The position numbers and the translations under genes are program-made. 64,000 nucleotides of DNA from a virus: the IMG/VR virus record IMGVR_UViG_3300025438_000010, positions 1 through 64,000 of that record. One strand, written 5' to 3'. This document shows, one piece after another, positions 10,346-29,964 of this stretch. A model generated the notes under the pieces. The model saw nothing but the letters and a program-made list of their open reading frames with translations. It ran no database searches and was not told where the DNA came from. Position 1 is the first letter of the stretch; each line of letters starts with the position of its first letter.

Positions 10346-10382
10346 GTGATAGCCTAAACGGAGTCAGAAAGGAACCAACCCC

Positions 10383-17021: not shown

Positions 17022-17168
17022 ATGACAGAAACAGAAGCACTACCCAGCATATTCGCAATATTTATTGTTGTTCCTACATTGGTATCCGCTTTCGTAATCA
17101 TTTGGTTCTTTGGCCGTGCACAGATGAAGGCGGATTACTACCCCGAGCACTGGAAAGATGTTCCGTAA
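17022..17168 (+). CDS. Single-pass membrane protein, 48 aa
   Basis: One hydrophobic helix (FAIFIVVPTLVSAFVIIWFF, about residues 11-30) between a short acidic start and a charged end. TATAAA is 6 nt before this ATG (leaderless). A different-frame ATG at 17015 opens a longer reading frame that runs into the next gene, but that frame lacks protein-like composition before 17225. The stop TAA is part of promoter P1. Confidence 0.7.
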   Translation: MTETEALPSIFAIFIVVPTLVSAFVIIWFFGRAQMKADYYPEHWKDVP

Positions 17169-17194
17169 AAAAATTTAACCGGGTGCTATATAAT
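17163..17194 (+). promoter_or_regulatory. Array promoter P1
   Basis: CCGTAAAA with TATAAT beginning 26 bp after its first C (17189-17194). The first copy of the array design; no terminator precedes it. Drives 17225. Confidence 0.75.
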
Positions 17195-17224
17195 AAAAAC
17201 ACGACGGCCAGAAAGGAGAAAAAA

Positions 17225-17584
17225 ATGGCTACCACATATGAAGGGAAGGAATTCATTTTTACCTTCCCCGGTTCAGAGACAAACTACGATCTCAACATCT
17301 GGGATCGCAGGGGGTACGAGACCGAATACGCAGAGGAGGGCTGGGCTATCAGTGTCTATGAGATCCCATACATCGGCTCACCGTATGGCTCAGGCGAGTT
17401 CCGTGAGGACCTCAGCTTTGACCTCACCCCAGAAGAAGCCAAGAGCCTAACCCTGGGATGGGATCCGGCGCTCGGAGGGGACTACTGCCCGGACTCCGAC
17501 TTCTGGCTTGATGTTCAGGGGTTCATGGACACCTACACGAACATCCCGGCTCGAGTACGCGAACTACTCGAGAACCTGCCCTAG
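17225..17584 (+). CDS. Array gene 1: acidic phage protein, 119 aa
   Basis: Starts MATTYEGKEF after AGAAAGGAG. Acidic and aromatic rich (Tyr, Trp), with a DFWLDVQGFMDT segment. I do not recognise it. As the first protein of the promoter array it is expected to be made early. Confidence 0.75.
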   Translation: MATTYEGKEFIFTFPGSETNYDLNIWDRRGYETEYAEEGWAISVYEIPYIGSPYGSGEFREDLSFDLTPEEAKSLTLGWDPALGGDYCPDSDFWLDVQGFMDTYTNIPARVRELLENLP

Positions 17585-17594
17585 ATTGCTGGCG

Positions 17595-17633
17595 AGGACC
17601 TCCGTAAAAAACGACGGGGGTCCTTGCTACAAT
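17595..17633 (+). promoter_or_regulatory. Array unit P2: hairpin enclosing the promoter element
   Basis: Stem AGGACCTCCGT/ACGGGGGTCCT (17595-17624) with CGTAAAA spanning arm and loop. The CCG starts at 17602 and TACAAT is at 17628-17633. Terminator and -35-like element occupy the same bases. Confidence 0.75.
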
Positions 17634-17665
17634 ACAAATACAACGGTCCGAGAAAAGGAGAAAAA

Positions 17666-17908
17666 ATGGACTACATGTTAGAACAACCCGAGCCCCAGGC
17701 TATTCGGGAAGAAAAAAGAAACCTAGTTTGTTTCAACGACGACTGCGCCATGTTTGAGTCCGAGGTAGAGATTCTTGTAGAGATTGAATACTGGAGTGAC
17801 ACCGAGGCACGGTTCGATTGGGAGTGCGACTCCTGCCGAACAATGTACGATCGAGAGTTCAATCCGATGGATGACATCGATTGGGATTCCTACTACGAAG
17901 GGAGATAG
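17666..17908 (+). CDS. Array gene 2: acidic zinc-ribbon protein, 80 aa
   Basis: From the ATG after AAAAGGAG. It has CFNDDC at about residue 19 and CDSC at about 54, forming one zinc site in a very acidic protein (many Asp, Glu, Tyr). Function unknown. Shares promoter P2 with the following gene. Confidence 0.75.
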   Translation: MDYMLEQPEPQAIREEKRNLVCFNDDCAMFESEVEILVEIEYWSDTEARFDWECDSCRTMYDREFNPMDDIDWDSYYEGR

Positions 17909-17910
17909 TG

Positions 17911-18105
17911 ATGTATAACGGCAGGTATGGCACTGTTGAGTGCCTGGTGTGTGGGAAAGATATAGAGCCAGGATCGGAGGAGGCCGTAAGCCTTCACGAC
18001 GGCGAGGATATCTCACCCGTTGCTCACCTATTCAGCTGGATGTGCGACAGCGATTGCGTTGAAGAATACGCCGACAACAATGAGTCAAGCTACTTCGAAG
18101 GGTAG
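17911..18105 (+). CDS. Array gene 3: zinc-binding protein, 64 aa
   Basis: CLVC at about residue 9 and C-x3-C near residue 47 form a probable zinc site; the protein is acidic. GAAGGGAG precedes the ATG, 2 nt after the previous stop, so it is a second cistron of P2. Similar CxxC proteins recur through the array. Confidence 0.75.
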   Translation: MYNGRYGTVECLVCGKDIEPGSEEAVSLHDGEDISPVAHLFSWMCDSDCVEEYADNNESSYFEG

Positions 18106-18111
18106 CTACCA

Positions 18112-18155
18112 CGAGGGGCCTGTCCGTAAAAAACGGATGGGCCTCTCGCTATAAT
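18112..18155 (+). promoter_or_regulatory. Array unit P3: 16-bp hairpin with the promoter element at its loop
   Basis: A 16-bp stem (18112-18127 with 18133-18148, two or three wobbles) closes on a loop of five A. The CCGTAAAA element (18124) is the top of the stem plus loop, and TATAAT is at 18150-18155, directly after the hairpin. Confidence 0.8.
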
Positions 18156-18184
18156 AAAAATGTCCGAACGAAAAGGAGAAAAAA

Positions 18185-18709
18185 ATGGGATTGGACATGT
18201 ATCTATCAGTACGGAAATACGTCAGTGCAATTGATTGGAGAGGAGTTGACAAGCTTGGCCCGGAAGAGTCAATCAGCGATTACCCCAACCTTGACTACGC
18301 CGAGGTCACGGAACGGCTTGGATTGAAGCCTTTCATCGCAAATGCGGCACACTCCGGCATGAACGTGACCGCAACCGCTGTCTACTGGAGAAAAGCTAAT
18401 GCCATCCACAAGTGGTTCGTAGACAACCTCGCTGACGGCGTGGATGACTGCAGACCGCTGTGGGTTTCAACCGACCACCTGAAGGAGTTGTTTTTTAACG
18501 TGTGCGAGGTATTAGCTAGCAATAAAGACCCACAGGTAGCCGAGGAGGTTCTTCCATCAGAAGACGGGTTCTTCTTTGGCGACACCAGTTACGGTGAGGC
18601 GTACTGGGATGACCTGGAATACACACAGAAAGCCCTAGAAAAAATCTTGACTCTGGCTGAGTCGGATGAGGGTAAGGCTGTGGACTTCGAGTATCAAGCC
18701 TCCTGGTAG
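18185..18709 (+). CDS. Array gene 4: conserved MGLDMYL-type phage protein, 174 aa
   Basis: Begins MGLDMYLSVRKYV and contains NAIHKWFVDN at about residue 77 and a SYGEAYWDDL segment near the end. Proteins of this type occur in many phages and some bacteria; no activity is established that I know. AAAAGGAG precedes the ATG. The largest of the early array products after the GP88 and DUF1281 proteins. Confidence 0.8.
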   Translation: MGLDMYLSVRKYVSAIDWRGVDKLGPEESISDYPNLDYAEVTERLGLKPFIANAAHSGMNVTATAVYWRKANAIHKWFVDNLADGVDDCRPLWVSTDHLKELFFNVCEVLASNKDPQVAEEVLPSEDGFFFGDTSYGEAYWDDLEYTQKALEKILTLAESDEGKAVDFEYQASW

Positions 18710-18724
18710 GCCTCAAGCGGAAAG

Positions 18725-18788
18725 ACCCTCGGTGAAAGCCGGGGGTTTTTCTGTTTCCGTAAAAAAACAACAATAGGGGTTATATAAT
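18725..18788 (+). promoter_or_regulatory. Array unit P4: terminator plus promoter
   Basis: ACCCTCGG/CCGGGGGT stem with TTTTT (18725-18750), then CCGTAAAA at 18757 and TATAAT at 18783-18788. Confidence 0.85.
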
Positions 18789-18822
18789 AAAAACATAACG
18801 ACGGAGCTACGAAAGGAGAATC

Positions 18823-19539
18823 ATGAAGCTCAAGCGTTCCAAGGACCGGAAGGTCACCAATCTAGTCACACCGAACGGGAAGGCCCCGTCCATTGCTAAC
18901 ACCTTTGGACTACCAGCAGGTAAGGCCTACTCATGCCCCGGCGCGACGTCCATCTGTGAGAGTGTCTGCTACGCGGGCAAGCTCGAGAAGGTATACAAGA
19001 ACGTCAAGGCGGTCCTGGTACACAACTGGGAACTGCTGAAGGACGCGGATCTCGATGAGATGCGACGACTACTCACTGAGATGGTCGACGACTTCATCAC
19101 GGACTGCAACCGACGGCAAGCGCCTAAGGACTTCAGAATCCACTGGGACGGCGACTTCTTCTCGGACACCTACGCTATGGCGTGGAGGATGACGATGGAG
19201 TCACGGCCCGAGGTCAACTTCTGGGTCTACACCCGGACCATGAGTGCGGCACGGTTGCTCAAAGGCACATCCAATCTGTCCCTGTACTTCTCGGCAGACA
19301 ACGAGAACATGCCGATAGCGCTCACGTTACGGCGTGAAGGGATACTGCTTGCCTACCTGGCGGATACTTTTCAGGAAGGTCAGGCACGGATGAAAGAGGC
19401 AACGGGCAAGCCCGGAGCCAAATGCCCGGAGAACACTAAGCAGATCCCATTGATTAGTGTCAACGGCTCGGCATGCATGGTGTGCCAGCTATGTCCTAAG
19501 GGCAAGGCTGACATCGTATTCAGTGCCAGCAAGTCCTAG
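18823..19539 (+). CDS. Array gene 5: GP88 family protein
   Basis: 238 residues resembling mycobacteriophage gene product 88 (PF17338): NTFGLPAGKAYSCPGAT, CESVCYAG (about 28-54), a central HWDGDFFS motif at about 107 and a C-terminal cluster C-x2-C-x2-C (ACMVCQLCP). The many conserved Cys suggest a metal or iron-sulphur site; no enzymatic role is proven. Normal family length. Confidence 0.85.
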   Translation: MKLKRSKDRKVTNLVTPNGKAPSIANTFGLPAGKAYSCPGATSICESVCYAGKLEKVYKNVKAVLVHNWELLKDADLDEMRRLLTEMVDDFITDCNRRQAPKDFRIHWDGDFFSDTYAMAWRMTMESRPEVNFWVYTRTMSAARLLKGTSNLSLYFSADNENMPIALTLRREGILLAYLADTFQEGQARMKEATGKPGAKCPENTKQIPLISVNGSACMVCQLCPKGKADIVFSASKS

Positions 19540-19544
19540 CGGAG

Positions 19545-19602
19545 TCCCCCGGTGAGAGCCGGGGGTACTTCCGTAAAAAATAAAATTGCTTGGAGATATA
19601 AT
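19545..19602 (+). promoter_or_regulatory. Array unit P5: terminator plus promoter
   Basis: CCCCCGG/CCGGGGG hairpin (19546-19565), CCGTAAAA at 19571, TATAAT at 19597-19602. Confidence 0.8.
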
Positions 19603-19633
19603 AAAGATAGCAACGACGAAAAGGAGCAAGACA

Positions 19634-19855
19634 ATGGAAACAACTGAGATGACAAATTTCTACCGGAAGCACTACGGAGTTTTGGTAGGGAGAAAAATAA
19701 TCGCAATACGATCAATGTACCCCGAAGAGATGAAACTTTTTATGTGGTACGGAGACCCCGGTGTGGTTATTGAGACCGACAAGGGACTGATTGTCCCCTC
19801 GAGCGACCCGGAAGGCAACTCTCCCGGACAGCTACTGCTAGACGGATTCGAGTAG
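19634..19855 (+). CDS. Array gene 6: phage protein, 73 aa
   Basis: Starts METTEMTNFY after AAAAGGAG. A beta-rich small protein with a basic VGRKIIAIRS segment. Not recognised. Confidence 0.75.
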   Translation: METTEMTNFYRKHYGVLVGRKIIAIRSMYPEEMKLFMWYGDPGVVIETDKGLIVPSSDPEGNSPGQLLLDGFE

Positions 19856-19856
19856 T

Positions 19857-19912
19857 CCGTAAAAAATTGGGGAGCCTCTCGCTATAATAAAAACAGATAG
19901 CGAGGGGCTTCC
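19857..19912 (+). promoter_or_regulatory. Array unit P6: promoter inside a hairpin
   Basis: CCGTAAAA at 19857 and TATAAT at 19883-19888. Arms 19871-19884 and 19898-19912 pair around the -10 box, so a read-through transcript would fold over it. No T run follows. Confidence 0.75.
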
Positions 19913-19941
19913 CTCAAAAAAAACGACAAAAGGAGAATGAC

Positions 19942-20586
19942 ATGCCTAACTGGGTATCTAATCAAATAAATATCACGGGACCTAAAGAAGAACTCGATAG
20001 GCTCCAAAAGCAAGCCGCAACGCCTTACCAGACTAAATCGTCTGTACTCACCGAAGACGGATTCGAGTGGGTGGACGCAGAGAACCAGGAGGAACTTTCA
20101 TTCTGGAACTTTGTCAGTCCCGACGAATCAATCCTGGAGGAGTATTTTGGCCCGGAGGCTAACAAGACTCTGGAGCAAGCGCTTCGACACGAGACCAACC
20201 ACTGGTACGACTGGAATGTCCGCAACTGGGGAGTCAAGTGGGACGCCAGCTATGTGGGAGTGACCCAAGTGTCTGACACGGAGATTGCCTACACCTTTGA
20301 GACACCGTGGGACGCAGTCGTTCCGGTATTCCTGAAGATGGTGGAGGAGTATCCTGCCCTTGACTTCGAGTACCGATATCTGGAGGAGCAAGGCTGGGGA
20401 GGGGAGCTTCACGCCTCAGAAGGTATCTACTGGATAATGGACGAGTGGGAGATTCCGGAGACACACGAAGACCGCGTGGACAAAATTGGCTACTGCCACT
20501 GTGCGGAGGTCGGCACGCGCGAGGAGGACATCAAGTACTTGTTCGACGATTGTCCCCCAAAAATGGTCTTGATGGCCAGCAAGTAA
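19942..20586 (+). CDS. Array gene 7: DUF1281 / YubB ferredoxin-like protein
   Basis: 214 residues. MPNWVSNQINITG at the start, NWGVKWDA at about 94 and a FETPWDAVVPVFLKM segment are the signature of the DUF1281 family (api92/YubB), found on plasmids and phages, with a ferredoxin-like fold and no proven function. The C-terminal CHCAE and DDCPP Cys are extra. A hairpin GGGCGAG/CTCGCCC follows before the next gene, which has no array promoter of its own. Confidence 0.85.
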   Translation: MPNWVSNQINITGPKEELDRLQKQAATPYQTKSSVLTEDGFEWVDAENQEELSFWNFVSPDESILEEYFGPEANKTLEQALRHETNHWYDWNVRNWGVKWDASYVGVTQVSDTEIAYTFETPWDAVVPVFLKMVEEYPALDFEYRYLEEQGWGGELHASEGIYWIMDEWEIPETHEDRVDKIGYCHCAEVGTREEDIKYLFDDCPPKMVLMASK

Positions 20587-20643
20587 GATACTGGAGGGGG
20601 CGAGTAACGGCTCGCCCTCTCTAGTCCTAGAAAAGGAAGAAAA

Positions 20644-20919
20644 ATGGAAGAAGAAACAGAAACTATCGGCGAGGTCGAAAGAACTCTTCACTACTTCGCT
20701 GATGACGGTAACTATGGGTCTGCGGACGGACTTACGATCATGGAGTCTACCCATTGGGACGAAATTGATTGGTCAATTATTGAGGGAGCACCCGAGCACT
20801 TCCGCCCAATGGTTGCCCGGTTGATTACAGAAAGCTATGAACCGGACGCTAATGAACAAGCCCTACGCGCTGAGTTTGCTAAGTACGGGGTTGACATTAG
20901 TGACTATGAGAAAGACTAG
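20644..20919 (+). CDS. Array gene 8: acidic phage protein, 91 aa
   Basis: Strongly acidic, with a WDEIDWSIIEG segment and a helical C-terminus. Not recognised. AAAAGGAAG lies upstream. It probably depends on P6 read-through past the 20592-20620 hairpin. Confidence 0.75.
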   Translation: MEEETETIGEVERTLHYFADDGNYGSADGLTIMESTHWDEIDWSIIEGAPEHFRPMVARLITESYEPDANEQALRAEFAKYGVDISDYEKD

Positions 20920-20966
20920 TAAGTAACTGGGGGGAATTGACTTGGGGGTTTCCCGTCGTTTCCTCC

Positions 20967-21041
20967 ACGGTGTTGGTGGTCACCGTTATCAAAATCACTA
21001 TTTTAGTTTCCGTAAAAAATGTCTGAGGTGGGAGATACAAT
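20967..21041 (+). promoter_or_regulatory. Array unit P7: hairpin plus promoter
   Basis: ACGGTG/CACCGT stem (20967-20986), CCGTAAAA at 21010, TACAAT at 21036-21041. The leader folds as CACAGCAAC/GTTGTTGTG at the predicted 5' end. Confidence 0.75.
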
Positions 21042-21102
21042 AAAGACAACACAGCAACAAGCCCGTTGTTGTGAAAAAATGACGGAGTGAAAGGAGATAG
21101 CA

Positions 21103-21453
21103 ATGGCTATCGTCAGAAAGCGCAAGGTAAGCAAGGTTACGATTGTCGAGGACACCAAGACGGTCACCAAGACCGCCGTGGAACTTACGGACAGCGAGCA
21201 GGAAATCCTGGAGTCGTTTCTGAAGGCACGAACTGAAGAAACCGAAGCCAAGAAGGAGAAGGAACGCCTCTCCGCCCTGGTGAAGGACATTATCGGTGAC
21301 GCTCAGGTCGCTCTGGTGAACGGCGAAGTCCGAGTGGAGTTGCTCCGCTACCCACGAGTGACAATCGACTCGAAGTTGTTGTTCGAGAGTTTCACCGAAG
21401 CCTACGAAGCCACGGCACGCCAGTCCGTGGTCACCCGTATCCAAGCCAAGTAA
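21103..21453 (+). CDS. Array gene 9: coiled-coil basic phage protein, 116 aa
   Basis: A charged helix (DSEQEILESFLKARTEETEA, then KKEKERLSALVKDI) between a basic beta-like start and a beta-rich end with LLRYPRVTID. I have seen this arrangement in actinophage hypotheticals; function unknown. Confidence 0.75.
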   Translation: MAIVRKRKVSKVTIVEDTKTVTKTAVELTDSEQEILESFLKARTEETEAKKEKERLSALVKDIIGDAQVALVNGEVRVELLRYPRVTIDSKLLFESFTEAYEATARQSVVTRIQAK

Positions 21454-21509
21454 CACACGGGTCGGCTCCCCTCCGGGGGAGTCGGCTCACCCTAACGAAA
21501 GGAAACAAA

Positions 21510-21791
21510 ATGGGAAACATGACGGCACGAGAATTAGCGTTTCTAGGTAATGAAGGATTAGGACTAGACACCGCTATCTCATTCCACCTTACGAGCAATC
21601 ACTTTCCGCCGGTACCGACGATTATGGTCGGCGCGTGTGTCGAAGCGATAGACAACGCTAATGAAGGCGAGTGGGACAAGTTAGTCCAACTACCAGAAGG
21701 TGTGGGGTACCGGGGAAGGACTGTCGCACCGACAAAAGCGATCATTGAGCAACACCACCTTGACTCATTCCTAGACGACACCGAGGACTGA
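21510..21791 (+). CDS. Array gene 10: conserved phage protein, 93 aa
   Basis: Contains ISFHLTSNHFPPVP (about 23-36) and LPEGVGYRGRTVAP, segments that I recognise from small conserved actinophage proteins without known function. GAAAGGAAAC precedes the ATG. Second cistron after a GCTCCCC/GGGGAGT hairpin. Confidence 0.75.
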   Translation: MGNMTARELAFLGNEGLGLDTAISFHLTSNHFPPVPTIMVGACVEAIDNANEGEWDKLVQLPEGVGYRGRTVAPTKAIIEQHHLDSFLDDTED

Positions 21792-21800
21792 GCGACAAGG

Positions 21801-21864
21801 AAGCCCCTGAGAAATCAGGGGTTTCTTTGGTTCCGTAAAAAACTGAAGCGCACGGTTATACAAT
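21801..21864 (+). promoter_or_regulatory. Array unit P8: terminator plus promoter
   Basis: AAGCCCCTGA/TCAGGGGTTT hairpin with TTTCTTT (21801-21828), CCGTAAAA at 21833, TACAAT at 21859-21864. Leader stem CAGGG/CCCTG. Confidence 0.85.
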
Positions 21865-21903
21865 AGAAGCATACAGGGACAAGCCCTGGAAAAGGAGAAC
21901 GAC

Positions 21904-22245
21904 ATGAGTGATGTAGTAATTATCAAAACTGACGGTACTGTCGAAGCCCACAAGTTGTCCGGGGATTCAACCGCCGACTTCAACCTCATCAGAAACGCCG
22001 TCGAGGGCTTTGTGGAGCGAGTTCCTATCTCTGACTACACCCAACTGATGTGGGTGAACGAGGAGGGCAAGTTGCGTGGACTCCCCCACAACCCGAAGGC
22101 TCAGACCCTCTGGGACTCACAATGGGGAGCCGGAACTGACCGGATTGTGGGAAATGTGGTCATCACGGGTGACGACACCGAAGAAGGCGAAACAGGCACT
22201 CTCCCCGAAGGAGAAGCCGAACGGCTAGTGGCGCTACTGTCCTAG
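21904..22245 (+). CDS. Array gene 11: DUF3846-like protein
   Basis: 113 residues with MWVNEEGKLRGLPHNPKAQTLW in the middle and IVGNVVITGDD near the end, the layout of DUF3846, a small phage/plasmid family of unknown role. Acidic C-terminal tail. Confidence 0.75.
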   Translation: MSDVVIIKTDGTVEAHKLSGDSTADFNLIRNAVEGFVERVPISDYTQLMWVNEEGKLRGLPHNPKAQTLWDSQWGAGTDRIVGNVVITGDDTEEGETGTLPEGEAERLVALLS

Positions 22246-22256
22246 CCGACACGGAG

Positions 22257-22319
22257 AAGCCCCTGCTACGGCAGGGGTTTCTTTGTTCCGTAAAAAATGT
22301 AAAGGCGTGGCTATATAAT
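22257..22319 (+). promoter_or_regulatory. Array unit P9: terminator plus promoter
   Basis: AAGCCCCTGC/GCAGGGGTTT with TTTCTTT, CCGTAAAA at 22288, TATAAT at 22314-22319. Leader stem ACTAGCCC/GGGTTAGT. Confidence 0.85.
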
Positions 22320-22378
22320 AAAACTACTAGCCCAAACGGGTTAGTAAGACGGGAAACATAAAACGAAAGGGGCCAGAA

Positions 22379-22819
22379 ATGGCTAGAAGTATCGCAGTCC
22401 GTATCAAGACGGAGAAGGTTATAGCCTCGCTAGAAGCCTCACTTGAGAAGATGCAGCACGACAAGGAGAACGAGAAGCCACTCAGGGAGAAGTACGACAA
22501 GGAGTTGGAGGCTTGGACTCAGAAGGTCAAGAAGTACGCTCTCACCATGCCCAAGCCTAAGGACATGGACATGGTCGCGGTTGGGGGAGGCTACTACCAC
22601 CGTATTGCCTCGGACAACCCTGAGGATATTGCTGTTCAAATAGTCCTTGCGGTTCCGGCTAATAAGGTTCCAGAACGCCCCGAGGCTCCTGACGCTGTTG
22701 CGGCTTGGCAGTACCGTGATGCGGTGGAGAACATTGAGAACGCGCTCCGGTTGCTCCGTATGACCGACCAAGAAGAAATCAGCACGGGTACTTACAGCAA
22801 AATTGCTCAGTACCTCTAA
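22379..22819 (+). CDS. Array gene 12: helical phage protein, 146 aa
   Basis: Basic helical N-terminal half with coiled-coil character (KVIASLEASLEKMQHDKENE), a GGGYYHRIASD centre and a helical end. No motif recognised. GAAAGGGG Shine-Dalgarno. Confidence 0.75.
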   Translation: MARSIAVRIKTEKVIASLEASLEKMQHDKENEKPLREKYDKELEAWTQKVKKYALTMPKPKDMDMVAVGGGYYHRIASDNPEDIAVQIVLAVPANKVPERPEAPDAVAAWQYRDAVENIENALRLLRMTDQEEISTGTYSKIAQYL

Positions 22820-22828
22820 CGGCTGGAC

Positions 22829-22887
22829 AGCCCCTCACTACGGTGGGGGTTGTTCCCGTAAAAAATATCGGGCACGGTCTATACAAT
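22829..22887 (+). promoter_or_regulatory. Array unit P10: terminator plus promoter
   Basis: AGCCCCTCAC/GTGGGGGTT hairpin, CCGTAAAA at 22856, TACAAT at 22882-22887. Confidence 0.85.
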
Positions 22888-22942
22888 AAAGACATACCGA
22901 CACCGAGTAAAAGGCTGGGTGCGGTCTACTGAGGAGGTAGTA

Positions 22943-23272: not shown

Positions 23273-23280
23273 TAAGGAGA

Positions 23281-23337
23281 GTGCCCCTCTACGGAGGGGT
23301 ACTTTCCGTAAAAAGTGGCGTGGTGCGCCGATACAAT
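23281..23337 (+). promoter_or_regulatory. Array unit P11: terminator plus promoter
   Basis: GTGCCCCTC/GAGGGGTAC hairpin, CCGTAAAA at 23306, TACAAT at 23332-23337. Confidence 0.8.
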
Positions 23338-23366
23338 AAAGACACGGACAGCAAAGGAGGACAATT

Positions 23367-23692: not shown

Positions 23693-23700
23693 GTGACACG

Positions 23701-23768
23701 GCACGCCCCCTCTCCGGAGGGGGTGCTGTCGTTGTCCCGTAAAAAATTGGGAGTAGTGGGAATAAAAT
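23701..23768 (+). promoter_or_regulatory. Array unit P12: terminator plus promoter
   Basis: GCACGCCCCCTC/GAGGGGGTGC hairpin (23701-23726), CCGTAAAA at 23737, and a weaker -10 (TAAAAT, 23763-23768). Short leader without a clear 5' stem. Confidence 0.75.
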
Positions 23769-23790
23769 AAAGGTATCAACGGGAGGAGGA

Positions 23791-23967: not shown

Positions 23968-23970
23968 GCG

Positions 23971-24033
23971 ACTCCCCCTCTCCGGAGGGGGTTTCGCCGT
24001 TCCGTAAAAAACATGGAGGGGGGCTTATACAAT
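23971..24033 (+). promoter_or_regulatory. Array unit P13: terminator plus promoter
   Basis: CCCCCTCTCCGGAGGGGG hairpin with TTTCG, CCGTAAAA at 24002, TACAAT at 24028-24033. Confidence 0.85.
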
Positions 24034-24086
24034 AAAGACATGACGGGGGGACACTAGGGCTTTCCGCATAACCTGAGGAGGACACC

Positions 24087-24425
24087 ATGGGTGACCGTTC
24101 GAATATCGCGATTGTCTACCACACCGGAGAAACTATCTACCTGTACGGGCATTGGCTCGGGCATGAAAGTCAGAGGATTGTCGCACGCGCAATTTCTGAG
24201 GGCAGGCGAATGGAAGACGAGTCTTATTTCGCTCGGATTCTTTTTAGCAAAATGATTGCTGAGGACATTGCCGGCGAAACCGGCTTCGGTATCGCACCGT
24301 ATGAGGTAGACCAGGACTACGGCAATCCCACAGTTACCGTGGATTTTCGTGACCACACGGTGATGCACGACAACTGGGATAACGCTGTCCCGTTCGCTGA
24401 CTACCCCCGGCTAGTACTGGTATAG
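24087..24425 (+). CDS. Array gene 17: conserved MGDRSNI phage protein, 112 aa
   Basis: Begins MGDRSNIAIVYHTGETIYLY, then GHWLG, a start shared by many actinophage hypotheticals. Mixed alpha/beta, acidic. Function not known. GAGGAGG Shine-Dalgarno. Confidence 0.8.
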   Translation: MGDRSNIAIVYHTGETIYLYGHWLGHESQRIVARAISEGRRMEDESYFARILFSKMIAEDIAGETGFGIAPYEVDQDYGNPTVTVDFRDHTVMHDNWDNAVPFADYPRLVLV

Positions 24426-24434
24426 CCTGACGGG

Positions 24435-24498
24435 AGCCCCTCACTTCGGTGAGGGGCTACCCCGTTCCGTAAAAAATTGGCTACGGCATGGATACAAT
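24435..24498 (+). promoter_or_regulatory. Array unit P14: terminator plus promoter
   Basis: AGCCCCTCAC-TTCG-GTGAGGGGCT hairpin, CCGTAAAA at 24467, TACAAT at 24493-24498. Leader stem AGGGG/CCCCT. Confidence 0.85.
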
Positions 24499-24539
24499 AA
24501 AGACAACAGCAGGGGAAATACCCCTACGGGAGGAGAGTC

Positions 24540-24875
24540 ATGGATACGGCTACGGTAGTAGGATTGGTGGCTACTACACCACGATATGTAGAAACTATTG
24601 ACGGGAAGCGTGTTTTATCTTTTCGTCTGGCGTGCCCTCAGAAGGGTTACGACAGGGACACCGGCGAGTGGGTGCCTAAAGACACAAACTGGTACACGGT
24701 GCTGTGCTTTGACGATGTAGCAAGCGACTGTGTCGACAGGGTTGGCAAGGGGAGTCGGATTGTTGTAGTTGGTAATCTGATGAAAGTCACAGATTGGTCT
24801 GCTGACAGCCCCTCGGGTACTTCGGTAGAAATACACGCCCACACCCTGGGTAACCTGGGGAAGAACATATCCTAA
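24540..24875 (+). CDS. ssb: Array gene 18: single-stranded DNA-binding protein
   Basis: 111 residues with the OB-fold order of bacterial SSB: VVGLVATTPRY, VLSFRLACPQ, NWYTVLCFDDVA, GSRIVVVGNLMK and a closing strand (VEIHAHTLG). It stops after the OB domain and lacks the acidic C-terminal tail that recruits partners, so it may act alone or as a competitor. It would coat single-stranded phage DNA early in replication. Confidence 0.85.
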   Translation: MDTATVVGLVATTPRYVETIDGKRVLSFRLACPQKGYDRDTGEWVPKDTNWYTVLCFDDVASDCVDRVGKGSRIVVVGNLMKVTDWSADSPSGTSVEIHAHTLGNLGKNIS

Positions 24876-24876
24876 C

Positions 24877-24942
24877 GGTAACCCCCTCTCCGGAGGGGGA
24901 TTACCCGTCTCCGTAAAAAATCACACGGTGCTTCGGTACAAT
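24877..24942 (+). promoter_or_regulatory. Array unit P15: terminator plus promoter
   Basis: GGTAACCCCCTC/GAGGGGGATTACC hairpin (24877-24905), CCGTAAAA at 24911, TACAAT at 24937-24942. Very short leader with no 5' stem. Confidence 0.85.
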
Positions 24943-24967
24943 AAAGATATGGAAAGGAGGTCAGCAA

Positions 24968-25171
24968 ATGTCTGACATAAAATACCCTGAGGTGGAAGTA
25001 GAACTGGTAGGACAGGACGGCAACGCGTTCGCTGTTATGGCAAGAGTGAGCAAGGCTCTCCGCCGGGCTAGTGTGGCTCAGCAGGAGATTGACGAGTACC
25101 TCAAGGAATCTACCTCTGGGGACTACGACCACCTAGTGGCAACCGCCACCCGGTGGGTTACGGTTCACTAA
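24968..25171 (+). CDS. Array gene 19: conserved actinophage protein, 67 aa
   Basis: Starts MSDIKYPEVEVELVGQDGNA; the following helix (KALRRASVAQQEIDEYLK) and TATRWVTV end are shared with many small actinophage proteins of unknown function. GGAAAGGAGG Shine-Dalgarno. Confidence 0.8.
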   Translation: MSDIKYPEVEVELVGQDGNAFAVMARVSKALRRASVAQQEIDEYLKESTSGDYDHLVATATRWVTVH

Positions 25172-25184
25172 CCCCACACGGCAC

Positions 25185-25245
25185 TAGCCCCTCTTCGGAG
25201 GGGTTATTGTCGTCCGTAAAAAATGCGGTGAGGACACCATACAAT
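25185..25245 (+). promoter_or_regulatory. Array unit P16: terminator plus promoter
   Basis: AGCCCCTC-TTCG-GAGGGGTT hairpin, CCGTAAAA at 25214, TACAAT at 25240-25245. Confidence 0.85.
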
Positions 25246-25299
25246 AAAGACATAGACAAGGAGGCACTAGAACTCTTTGCTATAACCTGAGGAGGAACT

Positions 25300-25521
25300 A
25301 TGTACGAGGTCGAGACCAGAATGGTCATAACCACACCACGGTGTCCCGAGTGCGGAGAGGCTGGCATTCTCCAAATCCCGGCAGACGGCTACGACCGCTG
25401 GGCAGAGGGTGCGCTTATTCAAGAAGCCTTTCCCAACCTTTCCCTAGCCCTTAGGGAACAACTGAAGACCGGCTATCACGGCGCTTGCTGGGATACGGCT
25501 TTTGGACCCGTCCCTTTTTAG
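25300..25521 (+). CDS. Array gene 20: zinc-ribbon protein, 73 aa
   Basis: CPECGEAG at about residue 15, then GYDRWAEGALIQEAFPNL and GYHGACWDTAFG. One CxxC plus a late Cys/His pair. The pattern is common in actinophages; function unknown. Confidence 0.8.
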   Translation: MYEVETRMVITTPRCPECGEAGILQIPADGYDRWAEGALIQEAFPNLSLALREQLKTGYHGACWDTAFGPVPF

Positions 25522-25532
25522 CCCCACACGGC

Positions 25533-25596
25533 AATTCCCCGGCTTAGGCTGGGGTTTTGTCGTCCCGTAAAAAATGAGGGAACACGGGAATATAAT
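25533..25596 (+). promoter_or_regulatory. Array unit P17: terminator plus promoter
   Basis: CCCCGGC-TTAG-GCTGGGG with TTTTGT, CCGTAAAA at 25565, TATAAT at 25591-25596. Leader stem GACAC...GTGTC with an inner AAGC/GCTT. Confidence 0.85.
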
Positions 25597-25650
25597 AAAG
25601 ACATAGACACCAAGCAAAAGGCTTAGTGTCACTACCCTGGAGGAGTACCT

Positions 25651-25926
25651 ATGAGTACACGGGCAAAGGTAAGGGCAAAAGTCCTTGCAGATGGTGGGAC
25701 CTTTGAGGAGGGCTACACCGGCTGGGCAAGCGACACCTACTGGGTCGAGGTAACACTCTCCGATTCAGAAACGGTGTGGGCTTGTGAGGCGACAGAGTAC
25801 GACAGCCTCTGGACCCTGAGGGTCGAGCAAGAGGATAGCGAAACTCGCGCTCAGATGTGGAGCTATGTCTGGGACAAGGTACGCTTTCCCGTAGTTCGCC
25901 GTGATAGCTTCTCACAAGCTGTCTAA
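25651..25926 (+). CDS. Array gene 21: phage protein, 91 aa
   Basis: Basic start (STRAKVRAKVLADGG), then a Trp-rich beta region and a helical end. Not recognised. GGAGGAG Shine-Dalgarno. Confidence 0.75.
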   Translation: MSTRAKVRAKVLADGGTFEEGYTGWASDTYWVEVTLSDSETVWACEATEYDSLWTLRVEQEDSETRAQMWSYVWDKVRFPVVRRDSFSQAV

Positions 25927-25931
25927 CCCCC

Positions 25932-25999
25932 AAGCCCCTGTCAGAAATGGCAGGGGTTCCTGGGGTGCCGTAAAAAAATTCTATCGAAGGTCGTACAAT
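25932..25999 (+). promoter_or_regulatory. Array unit P18: terminator plus promoter
   Basis: AAGCCCCTGTCA/TGGCAGGGGTT hairpin, CCGTAAAA at 25968, TACAAT at 25994-25999. Confidence 0.85.
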
Positions 26000-26051
26000 A
26001 AAGACAACGGCACACGGGGTACGCCTGTGAGCCACTACCTGAGGAGGCACT

Positions 26052-26165
26052 ATGAGTGACAACCCTTTCGACAACCTGGACATTATCAACCAGGACGCGA
26101 TTGACGCGATGGATGACGAAACCGTCAAGACGGTTTGGGAAATCCTTACCAAAGCCGGCTACTAG
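26052..26165 (+). CDS. Array gene 22: acidic micro-protein, 37 aa
   Basis: MSDNPFDNLDIINQD followed by a short helix ending KAGY; almost no basic residues. GAGGAGG precedes the ATG. Acidic micro-proteins of this size are typical host-takeover products, but no target can be named. Confidence 0.75.
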   Translation: MSDNPFDNLDIINQDAIDAMDDETVKTVWEILTKAGY

Positions 26166-26222
26166 GCGAGAGAGGGCGGGGAAACCCGCTCTCTCCCCCT
26201 ACCCCAACAGAAAGAGGAAAGA

Positions 26223-26450
26223 ATGTTAGAAAGAATTACACGGGTAAATTACTACTGGAAAGACACGGTAATCCCTGGAGATACTGACGCACAAGTAGTT
26301 ATCCTGAACGATAGCGACAAGTACGAACAAATGTCTAATGATGGAAGTTTCGATGAGCGTATCTGGTTCTACTTTCAGAATGAAGATGAGTTCCAACGAG
26401 CCTTTGACCCCGCTAACACGGAGTTCGAGTTCGTCCTCACCGGAGGATAG
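26223..26450 (+). CDS. Array gene 23: acidic phage protein, 75 aa
   Basis: Beta-rich and acidic (VNYYWKDTVIPGDTDAQVV). Second cistron of P18 after a GAGAG...CTCTC hairpin without a T run. Not recognised. Confidence 0.75.
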   Translation: MLERITRVNYYWKDTVIPGDTDAQVVILNDSDKYEQMSNDGSFDERIWFYFQNEDEFQRAFDPANTEFEFVLTGG

Positions 26451-26474
26451 GTTTTCCTCCCAGGGAAAAAGCAC

Positions 26475-26539
26475 AAGCCCCGCCATTTCTGGCGGGGTTT
26501 TGTGTGTCCGTAAAAAGTTAGGGGACACGGGGATACAAT
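26475..26539 (+). promoter_or_regulatory. Array unit P19: terminator plus promoter
   Basis: AAGCCCCGCCA/TGGCGGGGTTTTG hairpin, CCGTAAAA at 26508, TACAAT at 26534-26539. Leader stem GCACGGAACA/TGTTCTGTGT. Confidence 0.85.
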
Positions 26540-26591
26540 AAAAACATCAGCACGGAACAAGCGGTGTTCTGTGTCTAACCCTGGAGGAACT

Positions 26592-26747
26592 ATGTATTAC
26601 TTTGTTACGGTTATAGAAAAAGCCTCACGAGAGATTGTGGCGACTTATCTTGACGCCTTTGAGTCTGACGCTCACGAGAGGGCTCAGACCATTGGAACCA
26701 TTGAAGGCTACGCGGTGTTCATTACTAGTGGTGACCCACTCTCATAG
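26592..26747 (+). CDS. Array gene 24: small phage protein, 51 aa
   Basis: MYYFVTVIEKASREI then a helix and a short beta end; possibly a small ferredoxin-like fold. GGAGG Shine-Dalgarno. Not recognised. Confidence 0.75.
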   Translation: MYYFVTVIEKASREIVATYLDAFESDAHERAQTIGTIEGYAVFITSGDPLS

Positions 26748-26757
26748 CAACTAGGGG

Positions 26758-26819
26758 AGCCCCAGCTTAGGCTGGGGTTTCTGCTGTCCGTAAAATTCGA
26801 TCGACACGGACGATACAAT
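26758..26819 (+). promoter_or_regulatory. Array unit P20: terminator plus promoter (TCGATCGA type)
   Basis: AGCCCCAGC/GCTGGGGTTT hairpin, CCGTAAAA at 26788, TTCGATCGA in the spacer, TACAAT at 26814-26819. Leader stem GACAG/CTGTC. Confidence 0.85.
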
Positions 26820-26873
26820 AAAAGCACAGACAGGGACACAAGGTTTCTGTCCTAACCCTGGAGGATAGCAATT

Positions 26874-27062
26874 ATGCGTTCACACGATGGATTGGCAGAA
26901 TGGGCTTTGGAACAAGCCACCACACGGGAGCAAATTGCTCACCACATCGAGCGTTTGCGCGATGATGCCCTGATGATTCACGACTACCCCGAGCAGGCTA
27001 TCGCCTTTATCGAGGACGAACTCCGTGAGATTCGGGTGCTACTGGCTAGGGATTCAGACTAG
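26874..27062 (+). CDS. Array gene 25: helical protein, 62 aa
   Basis: Three predicted charged helices (AEWALEQATTREQIAHHIERLRDD). No known family. GGAGG Shine-Dalgarno. Confidence 0.75.
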   Translation: MRSHDGLAEWALEQATTREQIAHHIERLRDDALMIHDYPEQAIAFIEDELREIRVLLARDSD

Positions 27063-27071
27063 CCAGACACG

Positions 27072-27132
27072 GAACCCCTCTCCGGAGGGGTTTCGGTCGT
27101 CCGTAAAAATCGATCGAAGGACGGAATACAAT
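27072..27132 (+). promoter_or_regulatory. Array unit P21: terminator plus promoter (TCGATCGA type)
   Basis: AACCCCTC-TCCG-GAGGGGTTT hairpin, CCGTAAAA at 27101, TCGATCGA in the spacer, TACAAT at 27127-27132. Leader stem CAGCA...TGCTG. Confidence 0.85.
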
Positions 27133-27179
27133 AAAAACATCAGCACGGAAATACCGGGCGATTGCTGGGAGGAGTGGCT

Positions 27180-27386
27180 ATGCCCACTTTGGTTGTCACG
27201 GACACCAACAAGATTGGTGTCGATGGTTTGGTGGAAAGGCTTGCCGACCACATCATTATGGTAGTCGATAGGCGCGGGTATGGTGAGCAGGACAATGTCC
27301 ACACCATCACGCTTGCCGACACCATTCGCAACACGGAGGCGCACGGGCTTGCCTGTCGCCTAGGGTTTCTCGCCCACATCGAGTAG
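27180..27386 (+). CDS. Array gene 26: phage protein, 68 aa
   Basis: From the ATG after GGGAGGAG: MPTLVVTDTNKIGVDGLVER, alternating strands and helices. Not recognised. Confidence 0.75.
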   Translation: MPTLVVTDTNKIGVDGLVERLADHIIMVVDRRGYGEQDNVHTITLADTIRNTEAHGLACRLGFLAHIE

Positions 27387-27396
27387 CCCTGCCCAT

Positions 27397-27467
27397 ACTG
27401 TCCCCTCTCCGGAGGGGATAGTGTGCGTTTGCTGTCCGTAAAATTCGATCGAAGCACGGAATATAAT
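27397..27467 (+). promoter_or_regulatory. Array unit P22: terminator plus promoter (TCGATCGA type)
   Basis: ACTGTCCCCTC/GAGGGGATAGT hairpin, CCGTAAAA at 27436, TTCGATCGA in the spacer, TATAAT at 27462-27467. Confidence 0.85.
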
Positions 27468-27516
27468 AAAGACACAAGCACACGGGAACCCCTGTGGCTT
27501 ACCTGAGGAGGAACTA

Positions 27517-27600
27517 ATGAGTGAAAATATGTGTTCAGGCTGTGGCGATATCTGCCGGGCAAGTGAATCAAAGTGCGGTATCTGTAGAGGGGGGTGGTGA
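27517..27600 (+). CDS. Array gene 27: zinc-ribbon micro-protein, 27 aa
   Basis: CSGCGDIC and CGIC supply five Cys in 27 residues. GAGGAGG precedes the ATG. First of three closely spaced cistrons from P22. Confidence 0.7.
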   Translation: MSENMCSGCGDICRASESKCGICRGGW

Positions 27601-27603
27601 GAG

Positions 27604-27780
27604 ATGGGCATCACGGAAATGTTCCAACTGATTCGCCAAGTCTGGTCAGACTCTATGTCAGACAATGGCGCTATCTGGGAACGCTCTAACGCGGAACTAC
27701 AGAATGCTAAGGCTAACTACCCCGACCTGTACGAAGAAGCCCTGGCTATGGCATACGAGGCGAGTGTGAATCAACGATGA
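27604..27780 (+). CDS. Array gene 28: helical protein, 58 aa
   Basis: A single-domain helical protein (MFQLIRQVWSDSM, then NAELQNAKANYP). Starts 3 nt after the previous stop and overlaps the next start (ATGA). Confidence 0.7.
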   Translation: MGITEMFQLIRQVWSDSMSDNGAIWERSNAELQNAKANYPDLYEEALAMAYEASVNQR

Positions 27781-27980
27781 GCCAGACACCAGACACGGCT
27801 TATGGGGTAACGCTCAGTTTCACATTCCACGAGCCACGGAACAAGACACGGGAAGAAGCCGAGCGCTTTATCAACGAGTATGTGAGCAGACTCGCCGAGA
27901 ATGACGAGAGTGACCTACCCGAAGTCCGATGGGACGATGTGGAGTGGAACATCGTGGAACTACTGCCAGAAGCACAGTAA
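27777..27980 (+). CDS. Array gene 29: acidic phage protein, 67 aa
   Basis: Starts in the ATGA overlap. Beta strand YGVTLSFTFHEP, one helix, then an acidic beta end (VRWDDVEWNIVELL). Not recognised. Confidence 0.75.
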   Translation: MSQTPDTAYGVTLSFTFHEPRNKTREEAERFINEYVSRLAENDESDLPEVRWDDVEWNIVELLPEAQ

Positions 27981-27989
27981 GCCACAAGC

Positions 27990-28054
27990 AAGCCCCTGGC
28001 GAGAGCCGGGGGTTTTGCTGTCCCGTAAAATTCGATCGAAGCACGGAATATAAT
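27990..28054 (+). promoter_or_regulatory. Array unit P23: terminator plus promoter (TCGATCGA type)
   Basis: AAGCCCCTGGC/GCCGGGGGTTTTG hairpin, CCGTAAAA at 28023, TTCGATCGA in the spacer, TATAAT at 28049-28054. Leader stem AGCAC...GTGCT. Confidence 0.85.
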
Positions 28055-28109
28055 AAAGACATAGCACAAGGGCACAAGGTCCTAGTGCTCTAACCCTGAG
28101 GAGAAAGAA

Positions 28110-28430
28110 ATGCTGAAAGAGAAACTGACCACACTGCCGGAGTTGTACAGCACGGACGAGACGAAGGGCGACCTGCCTGCTGTTTATGTGTTCACACCAG
28201 ACGCTGGAGCGACCTGGGTGCTTTGGGAGTACAGCCCCGAAGAAGGACTGGCGTTCGGGCTGTGCGACCTGGGCTTGGGCTTTCCCGAGATGGGATATGT
28301 CTCAGTCCCCGAGTTGGAATCACTACGCGGTAAGTTTGGCTTGCCTGTCGAGGTAGACACCAGCGTCACCACACGGTTCCAGGGCTACGAGAAGGCTGGA
28401 GTGTCGACCCCTGAGTACCTGATGGCTTGA
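28110..28430 (+). CDS. Array gene 30: DUF2958-like protein
   Basis: 106 residues. TWVLWEYSPEEGLAFGLCDLG and MGYVSVPELESLRGKFGLPVEVD follow the pattern of DUF2958, a family common on plasmids and phages, of unknown function. Complete length. Confidence 0.75.
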   Translation: MLKEKLTTLPELYSTDETKGDLPAVYVFTPDAGATWVLWEYSPEEGLAFGLCDLGLGFPEMGYVSVPELESLRGKFGLPVEVDTSVTTRFQGYEKAGVSTPEYLMA

Positions 28431-28440
28431 GAGCCGTACC

Positions 28441-28510
28441 CCCCAGCCCCCACTCCGGTGAGGGTTGGGGCAGTGTGCTCGTAAAATTCGATCGAAGCAC
28501 GGGTTATACT
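28441..28510 (+). promoter_or_regulatory. Array unit P24: hairpin plus promoter (TCGATCGA type)
   Basis: CCCCAGCCCCCAC/GTGAGGGTTGGGG hairpin. The element here is TCGTAAAA (28479), the only copy without CCG, and the -10 is TATACT (28505-28510). Confidence 0.75.
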
Positions 28511-28539
28511 AAAAACATCACAAGGGAAAGGAGACAATA

Positions 28540-28692
28540 ATGTCTTACACTTACAAAATAGTGTTTGTGATAATCACCCTGGGAGTGGTACTCTCTTTCC
28601 ACGACACCTACTGGCCTTGGGCTATGGTTCCTCTGGTGCTTTCGGCACTGGTTGGCGCTATTGGGCTCAGGCTCGGGGGTCGAGGAAAATAA
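28540..28692 (+). CDS. Array gene 31: two-helix membrane protein, 50 aa
   Basis: Two hydrophobic helices (about 6-20 and 26-43) joined by a short HDTYWPW turn, with a basic GGRGK end. GAAAGGAG Shine-Dalgarno. A host-membrane function is likely, but none can be named. Confidence 0.75.
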   Translation: MSYTYKIVFVIITLGVVLSFHDTYWPWAMVPLVLSALVGAIGLRLGGRGK

Positions 28693-28716
28693 GTTTTCCT
28701 CCCAGGGGAAAAGGCA

Positions 28717-28780
28717 GACCCCCTACTTCGGTAGGGGGTTCTGTCATTCCGTAAAAAAGACATAGCACGGAGAATATAAT
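28717..28780 (+). promoter_or_regulatory. Array unit P25: terminator plus promoter
   Basis: GACCCCCTAC-TTCG-GTAGGGGGTTC hairpin, CCGTAAAA at 28749, TATAAT at 28775-28780. Confidence 0.85.
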
Positions 28781-28834
28781 AAAGACATAGACAGGGAGAC
28801 AAAAGGGCTTTCTGCTATAACCTGGGAGGTCATT

Positions 28835-29044
28835 ATGGCTAAGCAGTTTCGAGTCCTCGCAAGCAAGTCGGGCTTCAAGACGTTCGACTTCACTTATGAC
28901 GCACACGAGGAGTCATACGCTCGCAAGGTCGCTAACACACTGAGCGATGAAAATTGGTCAGTGTGGTTTGAGACCCTCGATGACAAGCACCAGAGTGCGG
29001 TCATCAACGACCTAGACTTTGTCTTCGGCAAGACACAGTTCTAA
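28835..29044 (+). CDS. Array gene 32: phage protein, 69 aa
   Basis: FRVLASKSGFKTFDFTYDAHEE then a helix and FVFGKTQF; mixed alpha/beta. Not recognised. GGGAGG Shine-Dalgarno. Confidence 0.75.
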   Translation: MAKQFRVLASKSGFKTFDFTYDAHEESYARKVANTLSDENWSVWFETLDDKHQSAVINDLDFVFGKTQF

Positions 29045-29055
29045 GGCGCACGGCA

Positions 29056-29121
29056 GACCCCTGGCTTCGGCTAGGGGTTTTGTCGTTCCCCGTAAAATTC
29101 GATCAACACGACTTGTAGAAT
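29056..29121 (+). promoter_or_regulatory. Array unit P26: terminator plus promoter
   Basis: GACCCCTGGC-TTCG-GCTAGGGGTTTTG hairpin, CCGTAAAA at 29090, variant spacer TTCGATCAA, -10 TAGAAT (29116-29121). Its leader has the clearest 5' stem: GATATC...GATATC with CAGAGAG/CTTTCTG inside. Confidence 0.85.
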
Positions 29122-29177
29122 AGAGATATCACAGAGAGACACTAGGGCTTTCTGGATATCTGGGAAGGAAACAAATT

Positions 29178-29369
29178 ATGTATCAGGTAAAAATCTTTAC
29201 ACACAGAGATGCCTCGCTCTTCGCCGAGTCTGAGACGTTCCAGACTAGGGAGGAAGCCGATGCCTACGCCACGTCTGTTGGCACGGGAGAGGGCTACTGG
29301 ACCGAGATTCACCACTCGCAGGCGGTGTGGAGCAACTTCACATCACACGAGAGGCTTGCCCACCAGTAA
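29178..29369 (+). CDS. Array gene 33: small phage protein, 63 aa
   Basis: MYQVKIFTHRDASLF, then REEADAYATSVG and a Trp-containing end; probably a small alpha/beta fold. Similar in style to arrays 24 and 34. Not recognised. Confidence 0.75.
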   Translation: MYQVKIFTHRDASLFAESETFQTREEADAYATSVGTGEGYWTEIHHSQAVWSNFTSHERLAHQ

Positions 29370-29382
29370 GCCCTCACCCCAG

Positions 29383-29443
29383 GACCCCACTTCGGTGGGG
29401 CTTCTGGCATTCCGTAAAATTCGATCGACCCTAGGAATACAAT
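29383..29443 (+). promoter_or_regulatory. Array unit P27: terminator plus promoter (TCGATCGA type)
   Basis: GACCCCAC-TTCG-GTGGGGCTTCT hairpin, CCGTAAAA at 29412, TTCGATCGA, TACAAT at 29438-29443. Leader stem AGACAgCAGGG/CCCTGtGTCT. Confidence 0.85.
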
Positions 29444-29492
29444 AAAGACATAGACAGCAGGGAAATGCCCTGTGTCTACCTGGGAGGCACTA

Positions 29493-29714
29493 ATGGCTCA
29501 CAACTACAAGGTCAATGGCTGGTTCGGTTCTACCACGGCAGGGTGGCGTATCGCCCTGGAGCCTGCTTTCTTCGAGGACATCGAGGAGGCACGGCTCTAT
29601 GCCCAGGGACTCCACCTAGCCAATCAGGAGGCTAACACGGAAGCCTACGAGGTCGAGGTCTTCAGACTTCGGGAGCGAGGTCTTGCTCTCCGAGTCCTGG
29701 AGTACAGCGCCTAG
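29493..29714 (+). CDS. Array gene 34: phage protein, 73 aa
   Basis: Starts MAHNYKVNGWFGSTT after GGGAGG. Contains DIEEARLYAQGLHLANQEAN (helix) and a beta/basic end. Last protein-coding unit of the array. Not recognised. Confidence 0.75.
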   Translation: MAHNYKVNGWFGSTTAGWRIALEPAFFEDIEEARLYAQGLHLANQEANTEAYEVEVFRLRERGLALRVLEYSA

Positions 29715-29726
29715 GACTACCCCAGG

Positions 29727-29793
29727 GACCCCACTTCGGTGGGGTTTCTGGAGTTCTTGCGCCGTAAAAATCCCGGAGTGAGATTGGTACAAT
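29727..29793 (+). promoter_or_regulatory. Array unit P28: terminator plus promoter
   Basis: GACCCCAC-TTCG-GTGGGGTTTCT hairpin (29727-29749), CCGTAAAA at 29762, TACAAT at 29788-29793. No gene follows before the next terminator. Confidence 0.85.
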
Positions 29794-29798
29794 GGAAC

Positions 29799-29890: not shown

Positions 29891-29964
29891 GCGTTTATAG
29901 GTTTTTACGATAAAGGTGTGTAGGGTAGTGGCAACTAACTAATATTTATTTCTAGGGGGGAATA

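Follow-up and report, generated by a model that had tools for sequence, protein, structure and literature searches.

A gene-by-gene array of 28 predicted promoters in which one box stands in place of the −35 element in a large tailed phage

The DNA analysed here (the window) covers positions 1–64,000 of the 75.6-kb IMG/VR contig IMGVR_UViG_3300025438_000010, a fragment of a large tailed phage, and carries at positions 17163–29793 an array of 28 elements with the consensus [C/T]CGTAAAA, each standing at a fixed distance before a −10 hexamer. On the evidence of the sequence, the array is confirmed as real and its 28 copies are supported as promoters of one design, in which the −35 element is replaced, the geometry is strict and the array is organized gene by gene. 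The original prediction, made from the letters of the window, had described 28 copies with an invariant 26-bp geometry and no TTGACA-like −35, and it holds on each count. All 28 copies were found and all lie on the + strand, 27 as CCGTAAAA within 17163–29769 and one as the TCG variant TCGTAAAA at 28479. The first base of the element lies 26 bp before the first T of the −10 in 28/28, and the best match to TTGACA at spacers of 15–19 bp is 3/6 in every copy, the same as at random positions. The window contains 30 occurrences of CCGTAAAA; 1.6 would be expected, and no more than five appeared in any of 100 shuffles. When a weight matrix was built from the copies, as had been proposed, they scored 26–42, whereas the next best site in 89 kb of phage sequence (the whole contig, including the window, plus 13.5 kb from a sibling) scored 8.6. 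The −10 sequences are TACAAT (15 copies), TATAAT (10 copies) and TATACT, TAAAAT and TAGAAT (one copy each).

Conserved positions comprise bases 0–9 (CCGTAAAAAA), base 25 (A), the −10 and a succeeding AAARAYA, with little information in bases 10–24. Within the element, CCGT is as invariant as the A-tract (27–28/28), and the spacer from CCGTAAAA(AA) to the −10 is 16–18 bp and never varies. Seven copies with the spacer TTCGATCGA, or one close to it, form a recently duplicated subset. The spacers of the other 21 copies are 30% identical, compared with 27.6% for shuffles, and none has gained or lost a base. Since the spacer has diverged in sequence but is invariant in length, the spacing appears to be under selection and the geometry to be functional; this is our strongest argument. 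Because conservation runs past the −10 as AAARAYA, the start site is placed at about base 39 of each copy.

Each copy belongs to a cassette with the order terminator, element, −10, start site, 5′ leader hairpin and one to three small genes. The expectation that nearly every copy would follow a terminator, with the genes insulated singly or in twos and threes, was borne out: read by eye, a terminator-like hairpin directly adjoins 23/28 copies (all except those at 17163, 17602, 18124, 19857 and 21010), and an automatic search places a GC-rich hairpin no more than 60 nt upstream of 24/28 copies, compared with 18% of random 60-mers. One gene is present in 21 units, two in five, three in one and none in the remaining one. 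Folded as single sequences, all 18 leaders of at least 33 nt form a hairpin starting 0–7 nt after the predicted +1 (mean z −3.5), in support of the assigned start sites. The stems differ in sequence, an indication that it is the structure itself that is kept, perhaps to stabilize the mRNA; RNAalifold found no common structure among the leaders, the alignment of their variable loops having failed. The predicted features of the array are listed below, in window coordinates; the structured RNA at its end has no match in Rfam.

17163..29793, +, promoter array, 28 × [C/T]CGTAAAA-N18-TANAAT, driving about 34 small genes and one structured RNA
17163..17201, +, promoter 1 (TATAAT), its element overlapping the stop codon of a 48-aa membrane open reading frame (17022–17168); no terminator before it
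17602..17640, +, promoter 2 (TACAAT)
18124..18162, +, promoter 3 (TATAAT)
18757..18795, +, promoter 4 (TATAAT), drives the GP88 gene
19571..19609, +, promoter 5 (TATAAT)
19857..19895, +, promoter 6 (TATAAT), drives a DUF1281-like gene
21010..21048, +, promoter 7 (TACAAT)
21833..21871, +, promoter 8 (TACAAT)
22288..22326, +, promoter 9 (TATAAT)
22856..22894, +, promoter 10 (TACAAT)
23306..23344, +, promoter 11 (TACAAT)
23737..23775, +, promoter 12 (TAAAAT)
24002..24040, +, promoter 13 (TACAAT)
24467..24505, +, promoter 14 (TACAAT), drives an SSB-like gene
24911..24949, +, promoter 15 (TACAAT)
25214..25252, +, promoter 16 (TACAAT)
25565..25603, +, promoter 17 (TATAAT)
25968..26006, +, promoter 18 (TACAAT), drives a 37-aa microprotein; orthologues in kin are TTGAC-driven
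26508..26546, +, promoter 19 (TACAAT)
26788..26826, +, promoter 20 (TACAAT)
27101..27139, +, promoter 21 (TACAAT)
27436..27474, +, promoter 22 (TATAAT), drives three genes
28023..28061, +, promoter 23 (TATAAT)
28479..28517, +, promoter 24 (TCGTAAAA, TATACT)
28749..28787, +, promoter 25 (TATAAT)
29090..29128, +, promoter 26 (TAGAAT)
29412..29450, +, promoter 27 (TACAAT)
29762..29800, +, promoter 28 (TACAAT), no open reading frame downstream
29800..29893, +, predicted structured non-coding RNA of about 94 nt, driven by promoter 28 and ending in a terminator hairpin (fold z −4.2)
25603..25630, +, conserved 5′ leader hairpin (example)
25537..25558, +, terminator hairpin preceding promoter copies (example)

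The phage is real, since a sibling contig (G044) matches the window at 36–56 kb with 99.9% identity; the array itself is present in one assembly only. The capsid protein is identical in four sibling contigs, one of which (G046) reaches about 13 kb further to the right than the contig does. The contig, a fragment, shows no end repeats. All named relatives infect or are assigned to Actinobacteria, and include DSL-LC01, a lake phage assembled from a metagenome (PMC10611076), and phages of Microbacterium, Gordonia and Arthrobacter. The Microbacterium phages Pumpernickel and Zooman are cultured, more distant relatives with a VWA protein, the capsid and a helix-turn-helix (HTH) protein among the shared genes.

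The element is private to this phage. The pattern CGTAAAA-N18-TANAAT has 27 matches in the contig and one, presumably by chance, among 91 other records of kin. In searches of IMG/VR with a pattern of 14 fixed bases, chance matches were among the matches listed, and the longer pattern is the decisive one: extended with AAARAYA, it is matched singly 11 times in IMG/VR and 36 times in 84,980 GTDB genomes, once per retrieved stretch. The possibility that the element is a common host promoter, named by the original prediction as what would overturn it, is contradicted by these single matches in GTDB. None of the 36 has an actinobacterial title, and the true host may lie outside the collection.

Comparison with kin, taken as the relatives of the AAA-ATPase and searched for boxes at a fixed distance before TANNAT, revealed arrays with the same layout, some orthologous genes and the −10 kept, but with other promoter elements; the consensus boxes were derived by a simple search that took the −10 as its anchor and would miss boxes with unusual −10s. 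DSL-LC01 carries about 28 copies of GATTCTAAAGATGT-TATAAT, and other lineages carry CTAAAGTTGT, TTCCAGAGTTTA, CTAGGGATTG, CTAAAGAAAG and CTCAGGAATG. Still others use an extended −10 (CCTGA-TATAAT) or TTGAC −35s, the latter in the closest sisters. The fixed-place box before TATAAT changes fast among kin (CTAAAG, CTAGGG and CCAGAG, all 10 bp before the −10 as is TTCTAAAG, and CTCAGG) and the −10 is retained, a pattern to be expected of boxes that co-evolve with lineage-specific readers. The AAA-ATPase tree places the window in a 14-member clade (support 93/88) in which TTGAC −35s are used by most of its sisters, and in the other half of the tree sister phages at short branch lengths have different boxes; support is good for only part of the forks of this tree, and several of the elements were labelled by eye. 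Among orthologous genes the promoters differ: upstream of the 37-aa gene at 26052 stands CCGTAAAA in this phage and GATTTGAC in G047 (protein 89% identical), L252, L296 and L297, and orthologues of the gene at 24087 have TTCTAAAG in DSL-LC01 and ACTTGACA in G062. The layout and part of the genes are thus old and the promoter element young, and parsimony favours the replacement of a SigA −35 by CCGTAAAA throughout the array of this phage. The GTAAAAAT words enriched in L250, G062 and G051 were considered as homologues of the element and rejected, most being ribosome-site or start-codon contexts such as AGGTAAAAATG.

The original prediction had attributed the element to one dedicated recogniser, either a phage factor or an alternative host sigma factor. 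A dedicated recogniser is still the best inference, and the reader of the promoters is probably supplied or controlled by the virus itself. A phage sigma factor is an unlikely form of it, since the family yielded none, and a factor that remodels sigma is the likelier candidate: Sigma70_r2 was detected in none of 42 kin records, although control genomes did score, and the weak Sigma70_r4 matches in kin include members of a two-HTH protein family. The −10 (TAYAAT) is of the sigma-A type. We consider the chances about even that the host SigA holoenzyme reads the −10 while a dedicated, phage-controlled factor reads CCGTAAAA. In this model, actinobacterial host RNA polymerase with its housekeeping sigma (SigA/HrdB type) would melt the DNA at the consensus −10, and the contact of sigma region 4 with TTGACA would be replaced by the factor on CCGTAAAA(AA), at about −38 to −29. 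The factor would be phage-encoded and take over sigma region 4, most plausibly as one of the two WhiB-like (Wbl) proteins of the phage, and the whole array would be switched as one regulon. The start sites, the use of host SigA, the phage origin of the factor and its Wbl identity are what we infer within this model.

Wbl genes are nearly universal in large kin. None lies on the 75.6-kb contig itself; the sibling G046 has two, within about 9–10 kb of the point where the contig ends (L517:9056–9343 and 10011–10532), one encoding a short protein with a variable tail and the other a long protein with an added zinc-ribbon domain that is kept in many large kin. Wbl proteins bind SigA region 4, and WhiB7 grips an A-tract beside the −35 (PMC3905903, PMC10245118). 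Because the element consists of CCGT and an A-tract in the −35 position, Wbl-directed sigma appropriation is the most attractive mechanism. Several points weigh against it. Pairs of Wbl genes also occur in the TTGAC-using sisters, which rules out the presence of Wbl as the sole explanation. Among the phages only the C-terminal tail of the short Wbl varies, and covariation with the element is not established. The A-tract of known WhiB7 promoters lies upstream of a normal −35 and does not replace it (PMC3905903, PMC10245118), whereas here it lies at about −34 to −29 without a −35 hexamer. Should the array be immediate-early, a phage factor synthesized after infection would arrive too late, and the reader would have to be injected or encoded by the host. 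Finally, about 30–45 kb of the phage lies outside the sequence at hand, judged from kin of 118–136 kb.

A second candidate was the two-HTH protein (36666–37163), which is conserved family-wide. It was rejected as the reader, its recognition helices being nearly the same in sisters without the element, and no confident match to another structure was obtained with its AlphaFold model. The gene seems to give a leaderless mRNA (ATG 6 nt after TACAAT), and CCGTACAA-like sites occur in its upstream region in the whole clade. Distant kin (L308–L310 and Pumpernickel gp350) carry a motif of the RERVRQ type, like that of sigma region 4.2, and Pfam Sigma70_r4 is matched by some of them. A near-perfect palindrome, CCGTACAAAGTT-AATTTT-AAACTTGTACGG, lies at 16972–17001 just 5′ of the array, beside an extended −10; its half-site CCGTACAA is one base off the array element, and the palindrome is a probable operator.

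The closest parallel to the proposed arrangement is found in the middle promoters of T4 (MotA box and AsiA-remodelled sigma70), which likewise keep the host −10, lack a −35, have a phage box in its place at a fixed distance and number dozens of copies per genome. The distance between the −10 and the MotA box (TGCTT type) is 12 ± 1 bp in T4 (PMC2988021), whereas the box here is CCGTAAAA(AA) at 16–18 bp without variation, and so differs in both consensus and spacing. No match to MotA or AsiA homologues turned up, though neither was searched for individually. WhiB7/WhiB3-type promoters resemble the array in having an A-tract near the −35, with Wbl genes present in the sibling contig. The resemblance to SPO1 that had been noted holds for the layout: the SPO1 host-takeover module is also a cluster of many small genes with many promoters. 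The units here are insulated by terminators. The early promoters of SPO1 are of the ordinary sigma-A type, unlike those of the array. The intergenic repeats of other actinophages (Cluster K SAS/ESAS, the repeats of Microbacterium clusters EC, EF and EG, and the palindromes of Cluster O) are similarly lineage-specific and placed before small genes. SAS lies at the ribosome site, and the O and EG repeats are palindromes of unclear role (PMC4351075, PMC7302621); none of these repeats has been described as a −35-replacing box with a fixed −10 geometry.

Some actinobacterial extracytoplasmic function (ECF) sigma factors, e.g. BldN, recognize CGTAAC-like −35s, and the element here occupies the −35 place with a 16–18 bp spacer, as it would if a host alternative sigma factor with a CGTAAA-type −35 read the array directly. 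This is unlikely, however, given that the −10 is the consensus sigma-A TATAAT and not an ECF −10, that the full pattern occurs in no recognizable actinobacterial GTDB genome and that the orthologous genes of sisters stand behind TTGAC or other elements. A similarly low probability is assigned to plain host SigA acting through a strong −10 and an AT-rich start region, with CCGTAAAA as a helper A-tract or a contact for the C-terminal domain of the polymerase alpha subunit and no dedicated protein involved. The very strong −10, the conserved AAARAYA start region and the use by kin of extended −10 promoters without a −35 in their arrays all fit this explanation; a CCGT as invariant as the A-tract and a constant spacing exceed what DNA shape needs. 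We think it quite improbable that CCGTAAAA is an operator or stoperator of a phage repressor acting over weak promoters, as in the Cluster A mycobacteriophages. The many asymmetric, co-oriented copies near gene boundaries do recall the stoperators of L5 (PMC9283540), and those of Cluster A (L5, TipsytheTRex) are likewise directional sites spread along the genome; the similar half-site CCGTACAA in the palindrome and before the two-HTH gene also speaks for a repressor. Stoperators, however, repress, keep no fixed distance to a −10 and lie mostly in short intergenic spaces apart from promoters, whereas each copy here is paired with its own −10 at a distance of exactly 26 bp and lacks any other −35 that a repressor could obstruct, and the two-HTH recognition helices hardly differ in sisters lacking the element. 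That the array is not a transcription signal at all but a recently spread repeat with an inherited geometry would suit the seven copies sharing a spacer, and is made highly improbable by the other 21, whose spacers are near-random while element, −10 and length are kept.

A phage box in place of the −35 is a mechanism of an already known type; the family-wide turnover of the box is more surprising, and as far as we found it has no description in the literature searched. To our knowledge, T4 is the only phage in which sigma appropriation has been worked out well. We propose tentatively, and with well under even confidence, that a large family of actinophages expresses its accessory genes from arrays of dozens of promoters with phage-specific boxes standing in for or supplementing the −35, and that these boxes are rewritten by lineage through co-evolution with Wbl proteins that commandeer SigA region 4, as an actinobacterial counterpart of T4 sigma appropriation. 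If so, the fast-changing promoter code could stop co-infecting phages from reading each other's arrays, and the presence of SigA-binding Wbl proteins in nearly all large members would hint at a reason for actinophages to have Wbl genes. Many natural promoter codes, with shared genes behind different codes, would open the evolution of promoter specificity to direct tests. Laboratory work is possible because the cultured relatives Pumpernickel and Zooman share several genes.

Other repeated words were observed in kin. The words GGGGTAAAAATTTcaGGGA, CACTGTGAAAATtcCAAGGA and CGAACGTAAAGAATGTGTACG follow terminators in G047 (L526 633–5900), L252 and L301, at no fixed distance to promoters, and TCTTGCGT-like words occur in like places in Zooman and Pumpernickel. 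In L249, L306 and L251, repeated TAGTAGCA/TGCTACTAA or TTGCTATCAAGGGA words before genes replace recognizable −10 arrays.

Elsewhere in the window, genes of the DUF7455 and DUF3039 families are adjacent at 4340–4808 (−) and are kept in the sisters G051 and G062; both domains are known mainly from actinobacteria. A weak match to a terminase small subunit (PHROG 2538, E 0.001) lies at 15599–16507, directly 5′ of the array, and no terminase large subunit was recognized in the window. The structural operon includes a polyvalent protein of 4527 aa encoded by a single gene (41198–54781). A direct repeat of about 430 bp recurs at a spacing of 605 bp in 34722–35760, with a partial third copy at 35936. 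Both copies carry the same 74-aa open reading frame on the − strand (34929–35153 and 35534–35758). The repeats adjoin non-coding, C-rich DNA that precedes the HTH gene; they may mark a region for replication or packaging, or may result from the assembly.

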